Part shown: in pieces, positions 2,143 to 17,272 of the stretch | Layout of the letters: each line of letters begins with the position of its first letter | Position numbering within the stretch: position 1 is the first letter of the stretch | IMG/VR virus record: IMGVR_UViG_3300046780_000009 | Location: 1 to 23,072 of that record | Length of the DNA stretch: 23,072 nucleotides | Strand: one strand, 5' to 3' | Source: a virus | Notes under the pieces: model-generated | Seen by the model: only the letters and a program-made list of their open reading frames with translations | Databases searched by the model: none | Told to the model about the DNA's origin: nothing | Made by a program: the position numbers and the translations under genes

Positions 2143-2155
2143 ACTACCCAACATG

Positions 2156-2162
2156 AAAGAGG
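2156..2162 (+). promoter_or_regulatory. Ribosome-binding site deciding the 2168 start
   Basis: AAAGAGG lies five bases before the ATG at 2168. An earlier in-frame ATG at 2153 has no comparable site and would put four extra charged or polar residues before a normal signal peptide. The 2168 start is therefore preferred. Confidence 0.6.
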
Positions 2163-2167
2163 CAACT

Positions 2168-2926
2168 ATGAAACGACTTGCGCTTACAGCTTCCATCCTG
2201 GCCGCGCTCGCGCTGCCCGCATCCGCCAGCACCATCACGCTGGGCAGCGTGACCTGGGACACCACCAACTCGGGCAGTCTGAGTCTCGGAAACGTGGTGC
2301 CGGCCGGCAACCAGCCGCAGAACGCGCCGTGCGTGATTTGCGGCGCGACCCAGCCGCAACAGCCGGCAAACTTCGGCTACAACGATTACAGCAACAACGG
2401 AGCCACGTCATCGATCACCGCGTTCTCCGATGAGGGCAATGGCGGCCGCAACACGCTGGCCGACAACACCTTCGCGACCGGCTACACCGTCGGCGCCGGA
2501 AGTCCGTTCCTGCTGTTCCTGCTCGCCAACAACGACACGAGCTTGGGCTTCTCGATCGGCGTGGACGTGAACGACACCAATCAGGCGCAGACGCTCAACT
2601 CGTTTTTCTTCCTCGACTTCACGACGCGCACTGTGCTGGCCTCGTTCACCGGCGGCACCACCGGCAACGTGCCGTCGCAAAACAACGGCACTGGCTTCCC
2701 GGACTATTCCATCACCGGGGCACTACTCAACCTCAACGATGTCCACGTGGGAGATACGATCGGCTTCGTGGCGCTGATGAGCGGGTTGAACGATGGCCCG
2801 GACTCGTTCTTCATCGAGGCGGCACCGGCGGCTGTCGTCACGCCGCTGCCGGCGTCGCTGCCGTTCTTTGGCGCCGGCCTGCTCGGCCTGATGGCGTTGC
2901 TCAGGAAAAAGCGTTCGATTGCCTGA
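2168..2926 (+). CDS. Exported protein with VPLPA/PEP-CTERM sorting signal
   Basis: This 252-residue protein has a clear Sec signal peptide (residues 1-20, basic MKR, hydrophobic core, ASA cleavage site). Its mature part is Asn/Thr/Gly-rich and looks beta-strand rich. The C-terminal tripartite sorting signal consists of VTPLPAS (224-230), a hydrophobic helix (about 230-245) and the basic cluster RKKR (246-249). In bacteria, proteins of this PEP-CTERM/VPLPA-CTERM type are processed by membrane exosortases and sent to the cell surface or extracellular matrix. No exosortase is in the window, so processing would depend on the host. A CVICG motif (55-59) gives two close cysteines. The gene sits directly between terL and the HNH gene on the same strand, with only short gaps, so it is probably co-transcribed. 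It has no obvious virion role, and an accessory (moron) gene that alters the infected or lysogenic cell surface is the best inference. The specific function is unknown. Confidence 0.85.
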   Translation: MKRLALTASILAALALPASASTITLGSVTWDTTNSGSLSLGNVVPAGNQPQNAPCVICGATQPQQPANFGYNDYSNNGATSSITAFSDEGNGGRNTLADNTFATGYTVGAGSPFLLFLLANNDTSLGFSIGVDVNDTNQAQTLNSFFFLDFTTRTVLASFTGGTTGNVPSQNNGTGFPDYSITGALLNLNDVHVGDTIGFVALMSGLNDGPDSFFIEAAPAAVVTPLPASLPFFGAGLLGLMALLRKKRSIA

Positions 2927-5540: not shown

Positions 5541-7661
5541 ATGGACGCAGCCGCGAAGCTGTCTCGCCAAGACCTCGAGCCCGAGGAGGACGAGAGCGAG
5601 GACGATTTCATGGAGCGGTGCATCGATGAGATCGGGGACGACGAGGCGTGCCAGATACTTTGGGAAAATCGCGGCGCCGGCGACATTCGCCACAAGACCC
5701 ACGAGGGCAAGGTCGGGGCGCTTGAGTTCATCCTCTCCGACGAAACGCCGGATCGAATGGATGACGTGATCATGGCGGACGGCTGGGAGCTCGCCGCCTT
5801 CAAGAAAAATCCGATTGCGTTGTTTGCTCACAATAGCTCATGGCCGATAGGCAAATGGAGCAAGCTCCGCGTCGTGGACAAGCAATTGCGCGGCGAGCTC
5901 GAGCTGGCCCCCAAGGGCACGTCCGATCGCATCGACGAGCTCCGCGCCTTGATCGACGCCGACATATTGCGCGCCGTCTCGGTCGGCTTCCGGCCGATGG
6001 AAACCAAGCCGCGCAAGGAGTCCGAATGGGGCGTCTTTTACACAAAGGCCGAGCTGGTCGAGTGCAGCCTGGTCTCGGTCCCGGCCAATCCAAACGCCCT
6101 GGCAGTTGCCAAGGGCCTGCGAATTTCCCCTGCAACGATCGACCTCGTCTTCGCCGGGCATGGCGCAAAAGACCGGGCCGCTCGCCGCGGGGCTCAACCG
6201 GCGGGCAAGCCGACACGACCTCCCATCAGAAAGGGCACGACCATGTCGTCGTTTGCTCAACGTATTACTGCGGTCGAGCAGCGCCTCAATGGGCTGCGCG
6301 ATCAACTCACGGAACATTGGACGAAGACCGATGATACCAACGTCAGCGACGAGCAATTGAATGCGGCGAACGAGCTCACGGGTCACATCACGCAGGCGGA
6401 ACATACGCTCGCCGGCCTGCGCGATGCCGAGCGCCAACTTGCCGCGACCGCTGATGACGGCGGCTCGCGCGCGGTCGCGGTCGTGGCCCGCGGCTCAACC
6501 GCCATCACGCCCGTCCGTACTGCGGCCGACACGACGCGGCCGTTCGCGTTGCCACGCAAGAAGACCGAGCCGCTCGATTTGCTGGTGCATTGCGGCGTCG
6601 CGCAGTTGTTCGCGCATCAGAAGCGCCAGCCGATCGATGTGACGATGCGGGAAATCTACGGCGACGATGAGATCCATCGCCAGGCGGTTCAGTGGATCAT
6701 GCGCGCCGCCACCGCGCCCGCTACTACCACCGCGGTCGGATGGGCCGCGGAATTGGCGCAGACCACCTACGCCGCGTTTATGGAAGTGCTCTATCCCGCG
6801 GCGATCTATCCGCGGCTGGCGGGCAAGGGATTGTCGCTCTCGTTTGGTCCCTACGGCAAAATCCTGATCCCGACGCGCGCGACCACGCCGACGATCGCCG
6901 GCTCGTTTGTTGGTGAAGGTTTGCCGATCCCGGTTCGCCAAGGGCTGTTCACATCGCAGACCTTGACGCCGAAGAAAATGGCCGTGATCACGACTTGGAC
7001 CAGGGAGCTCGGCGAGCATTCCGTTCCCGCGGTCGAGGGCCTGCTCCGCGATGCGATCCAGAACGACACCGCTATCTCGCTCGATAGCGTCCTGCTCGAT
7101 GCCAACCCGGCGACCGTGGTGCGGCCCGCCGGCATCCTCAACGGCGTGGCCGGCTTGACGCCGACCGCCGGCGGCGGCTTCGCCGCCCTGGTCGGTGACA
7201 TCAAGCAAATATCCGGCGCGCTGCTCACCGGCACCAAAGGCAACGTCAGAACGCCGGTCTGGCTGCTAAACCCCCAACAGGTGAATTCGATCGGGTTGGT
7301 TGCTGCGCCGGGCGCGGGCGTTTTTCCGTTCCGCGACGAGATCAGCCAAGGCCAGCTTGGTGGCTGGCCGGTCATCGCGTCTGGCACGGTGCCGCTCGGC
7401 ACGGTGATCGCCCTCGATGCCGCCGACTTCGTGGCGGTTGGCGGCGACGCGCCAAGGTTCGAAATCAGCGACCAGGCTACGCTGGTTTTTGACGACACGG
7501 CACCGACCGACATCGGCACGTCCGGCGCGCCCGCCGTGGTCGGTGCGCCGGCCAAGTCGATGTTCCAGACCGACTCGCTCGCCCTTCGATTGATCCTGCC
7601 GACCAACTGGTGCATTCGCCGCGCCGGCGTCGTCGCCTGGGTCGCCGGCGTGACTTGGTAG
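5541..7661 (+). CDS. Prohead protease / HK97-type major capsid protein fusion
   Basis: A single 706-codon frame encodes two head functions. Residues about 58-190 are an S78-family prohead protease: LEFILSDETPDRMDDVI (61-77), the catalytic histidine in FAHN (H97), the catalytic serine in RAVSVGF (S147), and AELVECSLVSVPANPNA (170-186), which carries the conserved acidic position. Residues about 235-330 look like a coiled-coil delta/scaffold domain. From about 330 onward is an HK97-fold capsid protein (LVGDIKQISGALL, VWLLNPQQV and QLGGWPVIASGTVP are typical). In related phages these are usually two genes. The start at 5541 has the best ribosome-binding site in the window (AAGGAGG at 5527-5533, seven-base spacer). 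An in-frame internal ATG at 6243 also has one, so free capsid protein could be made separately. The protease would cleave the delta domain during maturation. Confidence 0.92.
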   Translation: MDAAAKLSRQDLEPEEDESEDDFMERCIDEIGDDEACQILWENRGAGDIRHKTHEGKVGALEFILSDETPDRMDDVIMADGWELAAFKKNPIALFAHNSSWPIGKWSKLRVVDKQLRGELELAPKGTSDRIDELRALIDADILRAVSVGFRPMETKPRKESEWGVFYTKAELVECSLVSVPANPNALAVAKGLRISPATIDLVFAGHGAKDRAARRGAQPAGKPTRPPIRKGTTMSSFAQRITAVEQRLNGLRDQLTEHWTKTDDTNVSDEQLNAANELTGHITQAEHTLAGLRDAERQLAATADDGGSRAVAVVARGSTAITPVRTAADTTRPFALPRKKTEPLDLLVHCGVAQLFAHQKRQPIDVTMREIYGDDEIHRQAVQWIMRAATAPATTTAVGWAAELAQTTYAAFMEVLYPAAIYPRLAGKGLSLSFGPYGKILIPTRATTPTIAGSFVGEGLPIPVRQGLFTSQTLTPKKMAVITTWTRELGEHSVPAVEGLLRDAIQNDTAISLDSVLLDANPATVVRPAGILNGVAGLTPTAGGGFAALVGDIKQISGALLTGTKGNVRTPVWLLNPQQVNSIGLVAAPGAGVFPFRDEISQGQLGGWPVIASGTVPLGTVIALDAADFVAVGGDAPRFEISDQATLVFDDTAPTDIGTSGAPAVVGAPAKSMFQTDSLALRLILPTNWCIRRAGVVAWVAGVTW
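6231..6235 (+). promoter_or_regulatory. Internal ribosome-binding site for separate capsid start at 6243
   Basis: AAGGG lies seven bases before an in-frame ATG at 6243 (residue 235 of the fusion), exactly at the junction between the proline/arginine-rich protease tail and the coiled-coil delta domain. It could allow independent production of a 472-residue capsid protein in the large excess that a capsid needs over its protease. Confidence 0.5.
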
Positions 7662-8044: not shown

Positions 8045-9471
8045 GCGCACGCGCCTGGCTAGGGCGGATCGCCGATCGCCTCGTTCGCCGAGGCGAAGGC
8101 GACTTTCGCCCTGGCCCTTACAATCTGTCGGTGACGGGCGGCTGGTTGCCGGATGGCGCCGCTTGGAATTGGTGGCAACAGGGATACGACCCGATCACCG
8201 CGCCACGGTCGGCAATGGTTGAGGCTTGCGTCTCGGCCTATTCGCAGACCGTGGCGATGTGCCCTGGCGATCACTGGCGCCTCAACTCAAAGGGCGGGCG
8301 CGACCGCGTCAAGAATTCGGCGCTGTCCCGCCTGCTGCGCTATTTCAACGATTATCAGTCAACAAGCGATTTCATGCTCAATGCGACGCGCTCGCTCTAT
8401 GAGCACGGCAACACTTATGCGCTGGCGTTGCGCAACGATCGCTACGAGGTGGATGAGCTCCACCTTATGGACCCGCTGATGTCGCAGCCGCGGCTCGCGG
8501 TCAACGGCGAGATTTTCTATCAGCTCTACGGCAACGACGTTATTCAACGTCGGCTCGGCGCCGACAATCAGTTGTTGGTGCCGCAGCGCGACGTGCTGCA
8601 TATCCGCTTGCATACGAAGCGATATCGCCAGCCGACACCGCTGGTGGGCGAGTCGCCGATCGTTGCCGCCTATGCCGACATCGGCGCCGGCGCAGCTATC
8701 GTCAATCAGCAAGGGTCGTTCTACACGAACGAAGCGCGGCCGAGCGCCGTGCTCTCGACCGATCTCATCCTCGATAAGGATCAGGTTCAGGCGTTGCGCG
8801 ACCGCTGGAACGAGCAAGCGAAGGGCCTCAAGCAAGGCGGCACGCCGATCCTCACCGCCGGCCTCAAGGTGCAGCCGTGGGCCGTCGGCGGGCGCGACGC
8901 AGCGACCGCGGACGTTCTCAAGCTGACCAACGAGCACATCGCGCTCGCCTTCCGCATTCCGCTGCAAATCTTCGGGCTCGGGACCAGTGGGTTTTCGTCC
9001 ACCGAATTGTTGATGCAGAGCTGGATCGCGAGCGGGCTCGGCTTCGCGCTCAATCACATCGAGGAAGCCATCGGCGCGATGTTCCAGCTCAAGGGACAGC
9101 CGGACGAGTATGTGGAATTCGACACCGGCGCATTGCTGCGCTCGGCGCAGAAAGACCGGATCGACTCGCTGGCGCGCGGCGTGCAAGGCGGCATCTACGC
9201 GCCCAACGAGGCGCGCGAGATGGAGGGCCTCGAGGCCGTGCCATTCGGCGATGAGCCGCGCGTGCAACAGCAAGTCGTGCCCTTGAGCCAGGTCGGCAAG
9301 ATCCCGGCCGCGCCTGCGCCTGGCGCGCCGCCGCCGGCGCCCACCGACCAGCCGAAACCGGCCGACCAGCCGAAGCCGCCGCAGAAGGCCAGCCGCGATG
9401 ACATCCATCGAGAAGTCGGAAACATCTTTGCCAACGCCGATCGGATCGGACGCCGCCGAATGTCTGCTTGA
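8041..9471 (+). CDS. Portal protein, HK97 family
   Basis: This 476-residue protein is the ring at the single head vertex through which DNA enters and leaves. Recognisable portal features include the stretch with [20 protein letters not shown] (residues about 61-80), the segment around [14 protein letters not shown], the [19 protein letters not shown] region, and the helical core with [20 protein letters not shown] (301-320). The C-terminal part from about 420 is Pro/Ala-rich and repetitive ([12 protein letters not shown]) and is probably a flexible tail. GTG is the likely start, overlapping the previous stop as GTGA. Portal after capsid is the reverse of the common portal-protease-capsid order. 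The last 74 bases are also read in another frame as the start of the collagen-like gene. Confidence 0.93.
9383..9388 (+). promoter_or_regulatory. Ribosome-binding site inside portal gene for 9398 start
   Basis: AGAAGG lies nine bases before the ATG at 9398, within the portal reading frame. It supports the long 74-base gene overlap over a later non-ATG start for the collagen-like protein. Confidence 0.55.
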
Positions 9472-10417
9472 GGCGTGGCGCGAAGTCCTGGCCGAGGTGC
9501 TCGATAACGCCCGGTGCCAGTGGCAGCGCGAGCACGCCCTCGCCCAGGCGCAGACCGCGGCCACGCTGGCCGAGCTCCGCGCCGAGGTCGCGATCGCCCG
9601 CACCGACATGCGCGAAATGGCGGCGGCGCGCCTGGCCGAGCTCCGCAGCGGGGCCGATGGGGCGCCCGGCCCGGCCGGCGCGCCTGGTGCGCCCGGCGAG
9701 CCCGGCAAGGAAGGGCCTCCCGGCTTATCCGGGGCGCCCGGTGAGCGCGGTTTGCCCGGCCCGCTAGGTGACATAGGCCCTCCCGGCGAACGCGGCCCAG
9801 CGGGCGACCGTGGCGAGCCTGGCGGCCAAGGTGAGCGGGGCGAGCCCGGCCCTCCCGGAGCTCCCGGCCCGGCCGGCGAGCGCGGCGAGAAGGGCGCGCC
9901 CGGCATGTTGCGGTGCGTCAAGACCTTCGCCGCCGGCACGGTGCATTACGAGGGCGAGCTCGTCGCCGCCGCCGGCAGCACTTGGCAGGCGCGCCGGGAT
10001 ACCGCCGCGGCGCCGCCGCATGAGGATTGGGCGCTCGTTGCCGCGGCCGGGCGCGACGCGCCGGTCCCGGTCGTCCGCGGCACCTGGCGCGAGGGCGAGA
10101 GCTACCGCGCTCTCGAGGTCGTGGCATTGAACGGCTGTGGCTTCATCGCCCGCGCCGACAATCCGGGGCCGTGCCCTGGCGACGGCTGGCAATTGATCGC
10201 TTCGGCCGGGCGGCCCGGCAAGCAGGGACTTCCCGGCGGCAAGGGCGAGCGCGGCGAGCGCGGCATGCCAGGCATGGCGGCGCAGGCGCCGGCGATCGTC
10301 GCCTGGCGCATCGACCGCAAGACTTACACGGCAACGCCGCTCATGGACGACGGCAACGCCGGCGCGCCGCTCGAGCTGCGCGAGCTGTTCGCTCAATTTC
10401 AGGACGAGGCCGGCTGA
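9398..10417 (+). CDS. Collagen-like virion protein with CBM-like modules
   Basis: This 339-residue protein has a mosaic structure. Residues about 20-84 are an alpha-helical, probably coiled-coil, trimerisation region. Residues 85-171 are 29 uninterrupted Gly-X-Y triplets, rich in Pro at X or Y. Two related modules follow at about 180-218 and 227-270, each with the pattern (Y or W)-x-E-G-E, an aromatic or phenylalanine plus small-residue segment, a conserved tryptophan (W211, W264) and an ending of L-(V/I)-A-(A/S)-A-G; this resembles chitin-binding CBM5/12-like repeats. Eight more Gly-X-Y triplets occupy 271-294, then a globular end. Trimeric collagen segments are known in phage fibres and head decorations. 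Its place between portal and connector suggests a neck or head fibre that binds glycans, but the role is inferred. It overlaps the portal gene by 74 bases. Confidence 0.85.
9650..9910 (+). repeat. Gly-X-Y collagen repeat (29 triplets)
   Basis: An uninterrupted nine-base coding periodicity encodes 29 Gly-X-Y triplets within the collagen-like gene. Proline is frequent at both X and Y, and charged pairs such as GER and GEK are common, which favours a stable bacterial-type triple helix without hydroxyproline. Confidence 0.9.
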
Positions 10418-13975: not shown

Positions 13976-14341
13976 ATGGCCCAACTATTCGCGGGCACGG
14001 CCTTCCTCTGGGCCGACAACCGACAACTCGCGCTGCGCGGCAACTTCACCGTCTCGCCGAGCAACGTCGAGCGCACCATGATTGCCGGCCAGGACCGCGT
14101 CCACGGCTATCAGGAGATCCCGCGCGTTCCCTACATCGAGGGCGACATCTCGACCACGCCCGACTTGCTGATGGAAACGCTCGAGGCGGAAACCGACGTG
14201 ACTGTCATCGCGCAGCTCGCCAACCGCAAGCAGTACACGCTCATCCAGGCGTCGTGCAAAGCCGGGTTCGATATCAATACCCGCGACGGCCAGGCGCGCG
14301 TCCGCTGGGAAGGCGTGCAATGCGACGAGAGCTCGTGGTGA
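13976..14341 (+). CDS. Tail tube protein, Mu gpM-like
   Basis: This 121-residue protein polymerises as hexameric rings into the inner tail tube. The short length, the N-terminus MAQLFAGTAFLWADNRQLAL, the GQDRVHGYQEIPRVPYIEG segment and the late beta strands (RVRWEGVQC) match the Mu-type tail tube family. It directly follows the sheath gene, as expected, with an AAAGGAGA ribosome-binding site. The next gene starts four bases after its stop. No anomalies are seen. Confidence 0.92.
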   Translation: MAQLFAGTAFLWADNRQLALRGNFTVSPSNVERTMIAGQDRVHGYQEIPRVPYIEGDISTTPDLLMETLEAETDVTVIAQLANRKQYTLIQASCKAGFDINTRDGQARVRWEGVQCDESSW

Positions 14342-14345
14342 GCGC

Positions 14346-14726
14346 ATGAACATACCCGTCCGCGAAGGGTTCGTCGCCGAGCAGCCGGTGGCGCCGGAAG
14401 CCGCGCCGGCCGCGGCGCCGGCGCGCGTCGAGACCTGGCCGATCAAGGTGAAGCTGCTCCATCATCCGATCCGCAATCATAAGAACGAGGAAGTCCACGA
14501 GATTTCGTTCCGCGAGCCGACCGCGGCCGACATCATCCGCAACGGCAACCCGTGCCGCATCGATGCCGATTGGGAAATCATCATCGACGACCGAAAAATG
14601 GCGGCGATGGTGGCGACGCTCGGCGGCATCCTCACGCCCGAGGTCGAGCGGCTCGATCCGCGCGACTTTGCTTCCTGCGCCTTTAGGCTGCGGGGTTTTT
14701 TTCTGCCGGAGCCGGCGGCCTGGTAG
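14346..14726 (+). CDS. Tail assembly chaperone (TAC), zero-frame product
   Basis: This 126-residue protein is the short form of the tail assembly chaperone, equivalent to Mu gp41 or lambda gpG. It binds the tape measure protein during tail assembly and is absent from the finished virion. Residues 1-30 are Pro/Ala-rich. The core at about 32-115 has VKLLHHPIRNHKNEEVHEIS, a beta segment, then FREPTAADIIRN and a helical region, all characteristic of Mu-type TACs. The gene lies between tube and tape measure, as in most tailed phages. Near its end (14696-14702) is a heptanucleotide slippery site. A minority of ribosomes should shift there into the -1 frame and continue to 14902. Confidence 0.85.
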   Translation: MNIPVREGFVAEQPVAPEAAPAAAPARVETWPIKVKLLHHPIRNHKNEEVHEISFREPTAADIIRNGNPCRIDADWEIIIDDRKMAAMVATLGGILTPEVERLDPRDFASCAFRLRGFFLPEPAAW

Positions 14727-14902
14727 GCACCGACGCCGGCGAAAACTTCGTCCTCGATTGCTACTGGCTTGCGCGTTGGTATCACCAATGCCCGGACGTT
14801 TTTCTGTCCATGCCGATCTCGCATGTGCAGACGCATCTCAAATATACGCACCGCATCGGCGAGCTTAGGCGCCAGGCAAACGCCGACCGCGAGGATCGTT
14901 GA
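14346..14902 (+). CDS. TAC-T fusion made by -1 ribosomal frameshift
   Basis: This is the predicted 185-residue extended chaperone (equivalent to lambda gpGT or the Mu gp41-42 fusion). It consists of 119 zero-frame residues, ending in two phenylalanines, joined to 66 residues read in the -1 frame from 14702. The -1 frame is closed by a TAG at 14684-14686, just before the slip site, and then open to a TGA at 14900-14902. It has no ATG before about 14810, so it cannot be translated usefully on its own. Its sequence is plainly protein-like, with an aromatic helix DCYWLARWYHQCPDVFLSMP and an amphipathic end, and it resembles the T domain that recruits tail proteins to the tape measure. It ends three bases before the tape-measure ATG. 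Confidence 0.85.
14696..14702 (+). other. -1 frameshift slippery heptamer
   Basis: T TTT TTT sits in the canonical phase (X XXY YYZ) of the chaperone reading frame, so both P- and A-site tRNAs can re-pair after slipping back one base. It is followed by an eight-base spacer and a GC-rich hairpin, the standard arrangement for stimulated -1 frameshifting. The preceding GGGG makes the whole stretch GGGGTTTTTTT. Confidence 0.88.
14711..14740 (+). other. Frameshift-stimulating hairpin
   Basis: GCCGGCG (14711-14717) pairs perfectly with CGCCGGC (14734-14740), an all-GC seven-base-pair stem. It can be extended by GCC (14718-14720) pairing with GGC (14726-14728), closing a five-base loop with a bulge on the 3' side. 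The stem starts eight bases after the slippery heptamer, the distance expected for a stimulator. Folding was done by eye only. Confidence 0.7.
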
Positions 14903-14905
14903 ACG

Positions 14906-17272
14906 ATGGCTGAAACCGAAGAACTACAAATCAAAGTAACGCTGGTCGAGGGGAACACCGTCGAGAAATTGCGCGAGATGCGCAAGGAGATCGAGGCGCT
15001 CGGCGGCGGCGGGACGGCAGCACAGCTTGAGCGGTTCAGCCGCCAGGCGCGGGACGCGCGGGAAAAGGGACTCAAGCCGTTCTCGGAAGACCTCGAGGTC
15101 GCGGCCAAGCGCATGGTCCCGTTCATCGGCGGGATCGGCGGCATCGCCACCGGCTTAATTGCGGTCGGCTATGCGGCGGACAAGGCGCTCGATGCGCTCA
15201 ATGACTTCGCCAAGGTGCAGGAGCGCATCGGTGTCCTGAGCAAGCAAACCGGATTTGATCCAGCGTTCGTCAAGGTATTTCAGGAGCAATTCAAGCTCGC
15301 CGGCGTTGAGGACGCCTCGCGCGACCTGCAAGGTCTGGCGCACATCATGTCTGACATCACGCGCGCCAACAGCGAGTTCCGGCGCAAGATGATGGAGGGC
15401 CAGAAGCCGGGCTCGGCTGAAGCCGGCGCGATGCAGGAATACCTCGCGCAACTGACCGAGATCAAAGACCCGACGAAGTTCGCCAACAAATTGCGCGAGG
15501 GTCTCGAGAACATCAGAAGGAACGCTATCGCAAAGTTCGGCGAGCAGCGCGGCGCCGAGGCGTTCCGCAAGTTTGAAACCGAGCTCGGAATGCCCGACCT
15601 CGACCGGCTGAAAAAGGATTTGCCCGCGGTGTCCGCGGAGGAAAAGAAAATTCAGGCCGATCGCCAGAAGGCGGCCGACGACTATCTCACGACATCGCGC
15701 CTGATCGATGAGCATTGGGAGCACATCAAAGCGGCTTGGTGGGATCAGACGCTCGGCGGCAGTCCGCTGATGGACGCGATGAAATACATCGAGGGCGTGC
15801 TCGCACGCTGGGAAACGCAATCCAATAAGGCGTCCGAAGTAATGAAAGAGCATCCCTCGCCCGAGGGGTTCTGGAACAAGCTCAATCCGTTTGATCCGAA
15901 GGTGATCGAGCAACATAAGGCGCTCGACCCTGGCAGCGTCAGTGAAGCGCCATTGGCGAAGTGGTGGAGCGATCATTTTCAAAGCGGCAATGTCCCTAAG
16001 CTCCAACACGGCGGCATCGTCACCAAGCCGACGCTTGCGATGATCGGGGAAGGCGGCCCGGAAGCGGTCGTCCCACTTGGCGGCGGCAGAGGCGGCGGCG
16101 AGTCGACCGAAGACAACAACACGCGCGAGACCGCAGACAACACTAAGCAACTCCAAAAGCTCAACGACCAATTGTTTGAGATGTTGCATCCCGCCGCTCT
16201 CGTCGATCCAGGCGGAATGGGCGGTCTCCCTGGGCTCGGTGCCTCAATGCGCGGCCTCGGCGGCCTTCCTGGCTTCGGCGGCGGCGGCGGCGGGCTCGGA
16301 GCCGGCGGCGGCGGCGGCCCTCGTGGTGGTGGCGGCGGCGGCGGCGGCGGTGATGGCGGTGATGGCACTGTCACCTATCCAGGCGGTGCTCTGCGTCGTC
16401 GCTTTGGAGGCGGCCCCAAGGGTGCTCTTCCGACGACGGGGCCAGATGATGGCGGCGGTTCAAGCGGAACTCTTGCCGAGCAACGCGCACAGTTTCAGAA
16501 GGAATTAGATGCTGATCCAAAACTAAAAGCCTTTGCCATCGACGCGATGCAACACGAAGGCGGCATCCAATCAAACATGGAACAATTGATGAATATGGCG
16601 GCCATGCGCCATCAGACGATAAGGAAGGCGCTTTTCTCTGGGCAGTATGGTCCGGTCCGGCATGGCTTGATCAGTGGAAACATCTCCGCAAAAACCGCAG
16701 CGGAAGGCAATGCGGCGCTCGCAAAGGTCTATGCCGGATCAAACATCACTGATTATTCGACCGACCAAGGTATGGCGGGCGATCCTAACTTCGCCAAGTA
16801 TATGGCGGACCCCAAATATTGGGGGATGCACAAAGTTGAGAACGCTTGGTTTTCGGCTCACGGCGAGGAAGGCCGCAAATGGGCGGCAGAACAGCGCGCG
16901 AGGGATGCAGCCGCAGCCCCGGCGCCCGGCAATGTTGCAGCACCGCGCAACTCTTTTACTTCGCAGGCGTTTGCCGGCCGCCGCCGATCACAGGCGGCGG
17001 ACGATACGGCCGATGACGGTTCTCAGCCCACAATAAGATCGCAAGAGGAGGCCGACGATTGGGTTTTCGGCACGGGTGCTTCGCGCGCCGCGCTCGACAA
17101 CCAAATGGCGCAGAAGGTCGAAGGCACCGGCAAGCTATCGGTTCACGTCAACGCGCCGCGGGGAACCAAGGTCGGGGCCGAGGGCGGCGGGCTGTTCAAG
17201 AAGACCGAGGTTACGCGCCAGACCCAGATGGAGCCGGCGGCCTCGTCGATGGCCTCGCAGTATCAGGAATAG
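14906..17272 (+). CDS. Tail tape measure protein with inserted hydrolase-like region
   Basis: This 788-residue protein sets tail length and is ejected ahead of the DNA. Residues about 1-70 are a helical start, 70-99 a hydrophobic segment, 100-340 helical tape-like sequence. The tape-measure signature is at 369-391: it begins GGIVTKPTLAMIGEGGPEAV and continues to a proline-leucine. After a Gly-rich linker (about 440-490), residues about 524-668 form a compact region with MQHEGG (E551) and then NMAAMRHQTIRKALFSGQYG, a pattern reminiscent of lysozyme-like or cell-wall hydrolase domains. The final residues (about 731-788, KLSVHVNAPRGTKV then GLFKKTEVTRQTQMEPA) are again typical tape-measure sequence. 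The middle region is AT-richer than the first part, suggesting an acquired domain that helps the tail cross the peptidoglycan. Enzymatic activity is unproven. Confidence 0.88.
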   Translation: MAETEELQIKVTLVEGNTVEKLREMRKEIEALGGGGTAAQLERFSRQARDAREKGLKPFSEDLEVAAKRMVPFIGGIGGIATGLIAVGYAADKALDALNDFAKVQERIGVLSKQTGFDPAFVKVFQEQFKLAGVEDASRDLQGLAHIMSDITRANSEFRRKMMEGQKPGSAEAGAMQEYLAQLTEIKDPTKFANKLREGLENIRRNAIAKFGEQRGAEAFRKFETELGMPDLDRLKKDLPAVSAEEKKIQADRQKAADDYLTTSRLIDEHWEHIKAAWWDQTLGGSPLMDAMKYIEGVLARWETQSNKASEVMKEHPSPEGFWNKLNPFDPKVIEQHKALDPGSVSEAPLAKWWSDHFQSGNVPKLQHGGIVTKPTLAMIGEGGPEAVVPLGGGRGGGESTEDNNTRETADNTKQLQKLNDQLFEMLHPAALVDPGGMGGLPGLGASMRGLGGLPGFGGGGGGLGAGGGGGPRGGGGGGGGGDGGDGTVTYPGGALRRRFGGGPKGALPTTGPDDGGGSSGTLAEQRAQFQKELDADPKLKAFAIDAMQHEGGIQSNMEQLMNMAAMRHQTIRKALFSGQYGPVRHGLISGNISAKTAAEGNAALAKVYAGSNITDYSTDQGMAGDPNFAKYMADPKYWGMHKVENAWFSAHGEEGRKWAAEQRARDAAAAPAPGNVAAPRNSFTSQAFAGRRRSQAADDTADDGSQPTIRSQEEADDWVFGTGASRAALDNQMAQKVEGTGKLSVHVNAPRGTKVGAEGGGLFKKTEVTRQTQMEPAASSMASQYQE
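16276..16365 (+). repeat. GGC/GGT triplet repeat tract (poly-glycine linker)
   Basis: Runs of GGC and GGT triplets with few interruptions encode an almost pure glycine linker (with single L, A, P, R and D residues) in the tape measure protein. Such tracts can change length by slippage in steps of three without breaking the frame. The linker separates the tape-measure signature from the hydrolase-like region. Confidence 0.8.

Follow-up and report, generated by a model that had tools for sequence, protein, structure and literature searches.

The question raised by this locus was whether the tail assembly chaperone gene is read in two frames, so that a second chaperone with an additional domain is formed, and which signals in the RNA would direct such a switch. 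The window, i.e. the whole stretch of 23,072 nucleotides that was analysed, was a 23-kb virus contig from IMG/VR carrying tail genes of the Mu type: sheath, tail tube, chaperone, tape measure and baseplate hub proteins. Its source is a soil phage related to Bradyrhizobium prophages. The features of the chaperone region were as follows.

13976 to 14341, + strand: tail tube protein, used as syntenic marker (PF10618, E 8e-27)
14346 to 14726, + strand: tail assembly chaperone, zero frame, 126 aa, in the role of gpG, P2 gpE or Mu gp41 (PF10109, phrog_166)
14684 to 14686, + strand: stop codon TAG of the -1 frame upstream of the slip site, separated from the heptamer by nine bases (from the sequence)
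14696 to 14702, + strand: slippery heptamer T TTT TTT (from the sequence; conserved among lineages)
14702 to 14902, + strand: T domain in the -1 frame, 66 codons (14702-14899) followed by TGA (14900-14902) (conserved -1 relation, dN/dS and AlphaFold)
14724 to 14726, + strand: zero-frame stop codon TAG, 21 nt past the heptamer
14906 to 17272, + strand: tape measure protein, used as syntenic marker (weak PHROG tape-measure matches, best E 7e-5, and position)

The chaperone ORF belonged to a recognised family of zero-frame chaperones. It matched PF10109 (Phage_TAC_7) with 41 bits at a cut-off of 25 (E 2e-10), a family that Pfam describes as comprising the proteins E, 41 or 14, and phrog_166, a tail protein, with E 1.3e-8. 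In a fold search, the top match of the zero-frame protein was a Burkholderia tape-measure chaperone (E 7e-4), and Mu FS-gp41 was found at rank 7 with a weak E of 0.095. The gene was flanked by the tail tube and tape measure genes, as are frameshifted chaperones of the gpG/gpGT type. Several other genes of the window were also characterised. A single ORF of 706 aa at 5541-7661 (+) comprised a prohead protease fused to the major capsid protein (PF04586 and PF05065), and a collagen-like protein (PF01391, E 4e-17) was encoded at 9398-10417 (+) between the portal and the head-tail genes. Between the terminase and an HNH-like phage ORF, a secreted-looking protein of 257 aa with a signal peptide was located at 2153-2926 (+). 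Its C-terminal PLPASLPFFGAGLLGLMALLRKKRS tail resembled a PEP-CTERM sorting signal, with a weak NCBIfam match far below the cut-off.

The initial annotation had proposed a complete -1 frameshift cassette at the end of the chaperone gene, and its coordinates for ORF, heptamer, spacer, stem arms and stops were all correct. The heptamer was located in the codon context GGT TTT TTT CTG, which is the canonical X XXY YYZ phase in the chaperone frame. As had been described, the -1 frame was blocked by a TAG just before the site. It was open from 14687, and its TGA ended three bases 5' of the tape measure ATG at 14906. The predicted fusion comprised 185 aa and contained the join RGFFSAGAGG..., with the join peptide (R)GFFSAGAGGLVG....

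Relatives with 32-100% identity were obtained from scans of IMG/VR and GTDB genomes and included three Bradyrhizobium genomes. About 300 to 385 relatives were present in IMG/VR, and 80 per scan were taken into the comparison. Both domains were located by profile at 179 loci, which were collapsed to 84 lineages with less than 90% nucleotide identity. Three loci were omitted from the counts: L044 held only the first chaperone part before running into other sequence, and L180 and L181 gave no significant match in the T-domain profile search. Loci were picked on amino-acid patterns of either the chaperone or the T domain, so that their selection carried no codon bias.

The heptamer was present in 84/84 lineages, of which 68 had TTTTTTT and the remaining 16 TTTTTTC. 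The preceding codon was NNT in every lineage, though the amino acid varied (G, R, S, N, T, P, V), and ten different codons were used at the Leu/Ile position right after the heptamer. In these phages, TTT accounted for 22% of Phe codons and T for 16% of third positions. Elsewhere in the loci of the relatives, runs of seven T were found five times in 389 kb. The window itself contained one such run, with 1.3 expected from shuffles; the run by itself is thus unremarkable, and it is its phase, place and conservation that are remarkable. The zero-frame stop was also similarly placed, 21 nt past the heptamer in 61 of the 84 lineages, 24 nt in 12 and 27 nt in six, and was TAG in 72. The closeness of the upstream -1 stop was lineage-specific, with a median distance of 111 nt in the relatives. 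A Shine-Dalgarno-like stimulator 5' of the slip site was found in only two of 84 lineages, no more than in controls.

At all 179 loci with both domains, the second domain was in the -1 frame of the first. This bore out the claim that the frameshifted chaperone exposes a hidden T domain, and it ruled out a -2 shift of the Mu gp41 type with access to the +1 frame. Frame offset 1 contained a stop codon across the T span in every lineage. Past the zero-frame stop, the -1 frame showed a median dN/dS of 0.17, and the other two frames had values above 1.5. Sequence conservation began right at the heptamer. Conservation of the -1 frame in relatives, the lack of which had been named as a refuting outcome, was therefore evident from the 179 loci and their dN/dS. 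AlphaFold confidently predicted three helices after a disordered linker (mean pLDDT 81, with a pLDDT of at least 90 for 43 of 68 residues).

The T domain had no significant match in Pfam or the PDB, and in PHROGs it matched one weak family without function (best E 9e-4). No match was obtained by Foldseek of the model against PDB and BFVD at E 0.001, or by tblastn of the domain against phage records. SfV-like phages were reached through a chaperone match in Pantoea phage AH07. The profile comparison with T domains of Mu-like phages, which had been suggested, was carried out against the -1 extensions of nine phages (L182-L190) and gave an hhalign probability of 97% (E 6e-11). These phages were SfV, Pantoea AH07, Edwardsiella EPP-1, Yersinia YeP1, Burkholderia BgVeeders33, Serratia BZS1, Citrobacter phiNP, Bordetella PBb001 and Pseudomonas PG1; P2 was not in the alignment. 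An in-phase T TTT TTN site was present in each of the nine, and the -1 extension was left blank in the annotation of all nine records, in line with the expectation that a gene caller would leave 14727-14905 of the window empty.

The structure downstream of the slip site was a different matter. Two candidate elements were considered.

14711 to 14740, + strand: GC stem of 7 bp proposed in the initial annotation, arms 14711-14717 and 14734-14740, present in the window and kept only in its lineage
14721 to 14766, + strand: window copy of a family hairpin, UGGUAG at 14721-14726 (Trp codon and zero-frame stop) with CUACUG at 14761-14766

The GC stem consisted of GCCGGCG (14711-14717) and CGCCGGC (14734-14740), with seven GC pairs, a loop of 16 nt and a spacer of 8 nt (14703-14710). 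It had been counted as part of the complete cassette, and breakage of heptamer or stem in relatives had been named as evidence against it. The heptamer stood this comparison in 84/84 lineages; the stem was kept in one, the window's own, and the other 83 formed at most four of the seven pairs. A role of this stem as a conserved stimulator was thereby ruled out. Stems of at least 6 bp at a spacing of 4-12 nt occurred in 13/84 lineages, with 13.6 expected by chance. No conserved stem was found 5-9 nt past the heptamer in the 84 lineages, and an Rfam search of the window gave no match. A functional stimulator specific to the window's lineage appears unlikely. The spacing of 8 nt is canonical, the stem was the predicted fold once the bases before 14711 were masked, and it was kept across the window's cluster, the members of which are nearly identical. 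Against this, apart from its absence elsewhere, the stem was rivalled by folds of equal energy, with a pair probability of 0.07-0.10 in the window, and dinucleotide shuffles of the region folded equally well in 10-15 of 200 cases (5-8%).

The family hairpin had a wider distribution. In its outer stem, UGGUAG, which contains the zero-frame stop, pairs with the T-domain codons for Cys-Tyr-Arg/Trp, and all six pairs were present in 64/82 lineages. The stretch 17-67 nt from the heptamer start showed a folding excess over both controls, with a mean z of -1.6 against dinucleotide shuffles and of -1.16 plus or minus 0.11 against synonymous-codon permutations. For the latter value, the background ranged from about +0.2 to -0.4 within the chaperone gene and from 0 to -0.7 over most of the tape measure gene. 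Swapping arms among 40 lineages reduced hairpin stability, with none of 2000 permutations as good, and the same test on non-overlapping control stretches was not significant in that direction. RNAalifold found no common structure for all 84 lineages because their lengths differ; with 40 lineages of equal length, UGGUAG/CUACCG was the only structure. Column-wise covariation was weak (score 0.134 versus 0.120, with 28/500 shuffles as high), the doubly coding outer stem was nearly invariant, its arms were shared by related lineages, and a similar folding excess was seen in two further stretches, 105-155 nt past the heptamer and at the start of the tape measure gene. The hairpin is therefore regarded as a candidate. 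In the window itself it was weak, with a pair probability of 0.003-0.04 and several competing folds; in the relatives L037 and L161 it was strong. Tentatively, it may be a conserved structure that holds the chaperone stop in its stem, 10-18 nt past the slip site, with a variable upper stem, and that tunes frameshifting or couples it to termination there, unlike in P2, which has no hairpin.

Each of the two further stretches was also observed in its own right. At about 14800-14850, within the T domain, the excess over synonymous controls had a mean z of -1.0. At 14936-14986, between 30 and 80 nt past the tape measure start, the mean z against synonymous permutations was -1.49 plus or minus 0.16 in 73 relatives, the strongest value seen, and an inverted repeat TTGCGC/GCGCAA was located nearby in the window. 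A structure at this position might dampen translation of the tape measure protein, of which few copies are needed.

The long form could also originate from the RNA polymerase instead of the ribosome, with slippage on the T run adding one extra U to the mRNA. Fusion proteins are known to arise in this way (PMC5009743), the seven-T homopolymer is present, and in lineages with seven T both modes of slippage look alike from sequence alone. Such an origin is nonetheless very unlikely because 16 of the 84 lineages and nearly all named phages have six T. In the 16 lineages, the six T are followed by C. Six T were likewise found in SfV, AH07, EPP-1 and BgVeeders33 (T6C), BZS1 (T6A) and P2, PG1, PBb001 and phiNP (T6G). 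Furthermore, the X XXY YYZ phase was always kept, and polymerase slippage would need no phase.

Still less probable is a separate gene in the -1 frame, translated from an internal start without any frameshift. The ORF exists and has an ATG at 14810, but this codon lies past the most conserved stretch (LDCYWLARWYHQ), and the window has no ATG, GTG or TTG in the -1 frame ahead of this conserved core, which makes internal initiation highly improbable. The first ATG was more than 60 nt past the heptamer in 33/84 lineages. An internal start is also at odds with the onset of conservation at the heptamer, and it leaves the invariant heptamer unexplained. An assembly error or a decayed gene, suggested by the indel-prone homopolymer in a metagenome contig, has a negligible probability and was ruled out by the relatives, with the identical break at the same run in 179 loci, mostly on separate contigs, and in Bradyrhizobium isolate genomes.

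The best explanation, to which we assign a probability of about 0.94, is that a phage with a Mu-like contractile-tail module makes its pair of tail assembly chaperones by programmed -1 ribosomal frameshifting. Established here were the reading frames, the conservation of the slip site, selection for protein coding in the -1 frame and, for both parts, homology to tail chaperones of P2, Mu and SfV; the comparison of sequences provides strong evidence for a programmed shift. At such heptamers, tandem slippage of two tRNAs is accepted as the mechanism. The slip event itself, its rate and the binding roles of both products, as we infer them, would be as follows. The majority of ribosomes would read GGT TTT TTT CTG up to the TAG and release the 126-aa chaperone. 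A minority would move one base back on T TTT TTT, where each of the two Phe tRNAs would pair with UUU again, and append the 66-residue three-helix T domain, yielding the 185-aa fusion. On the model of lambda gpG/gpGT, the 126-aa form would coat the tape measure protein, and recruitment of tail tube subunits would fall to the few fusion molecules. T TTT TTT was less shifty than A AAA AAG in E. coli constructs (PMC5009743), so the slip rate may be low.

The slip site of lambda differs from T TTT TTT. The likeness to lambda is one of functional model, a short and a frameshifted chaperone, in which the short form binds the tape measure repeatedly and the tube protein is brought in by the rare long form (PMC5009743). 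P2 gpE and gpE+E' are closer, with the chaperone gene just 5' of the tape measure gene and an in-phase T TTT TTN (PMC3091744). In the P2 record, E+E' is listed as the product of a -1 frameshift. The zero-frame stop of P2 is 18 nt past the slip site, compared with 21 nt in the window, and its -1 extension is similar in size, with 57 codons compared with 66. P2 differs in shifting at T TTT TTG instead of T TTT TTT and in doing so without a downstream hairpin (PMC3091744). SfV, AH07, EPP-1, BZS1 and PBb001, with Mu-type contractile tails, share the gene order, the in-phase T TTT TTN and the homologous -1 T domain. They differ in the chaperone itself, for which similarity by tblastn was restricted to AH07 (31%). 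Mu gp41/FS-gp41 resembles the window in gene position, in the weak fold match and in the type of its sheath, tube and hub genes; unlike the window, Mu uses a -2 shift (PMC5009743), and no X XXY YYZ site was found in its annotated gene. For D3112-like Pseudomonas phages, a -1 shift at T TTT TTC was predicted (PMC4378225), a likeness by description, and these phages have siphovirus tails. As P2, SfV and D3112-type phages share the type of slip site, and P2 shifts without a hairpin (PMC3091744), the claim that the cassette of the window is unusually complete was not supported.

Frameshifted tail chaperones are widespread in tailed phages and are a standard device. The programmed frameshift described here is new only as a further member of this device. 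The 84 lineages provide a large, clean comparative set for the T TTT TTY slip site. The T domain is dropped by automatic annotation, as seen from the blank stretch in the nine phage records examined. The hairpin with the stop codon in its stem, if true, would add a testable element to the means by which these phages adjust the proportions of their two chaperones.
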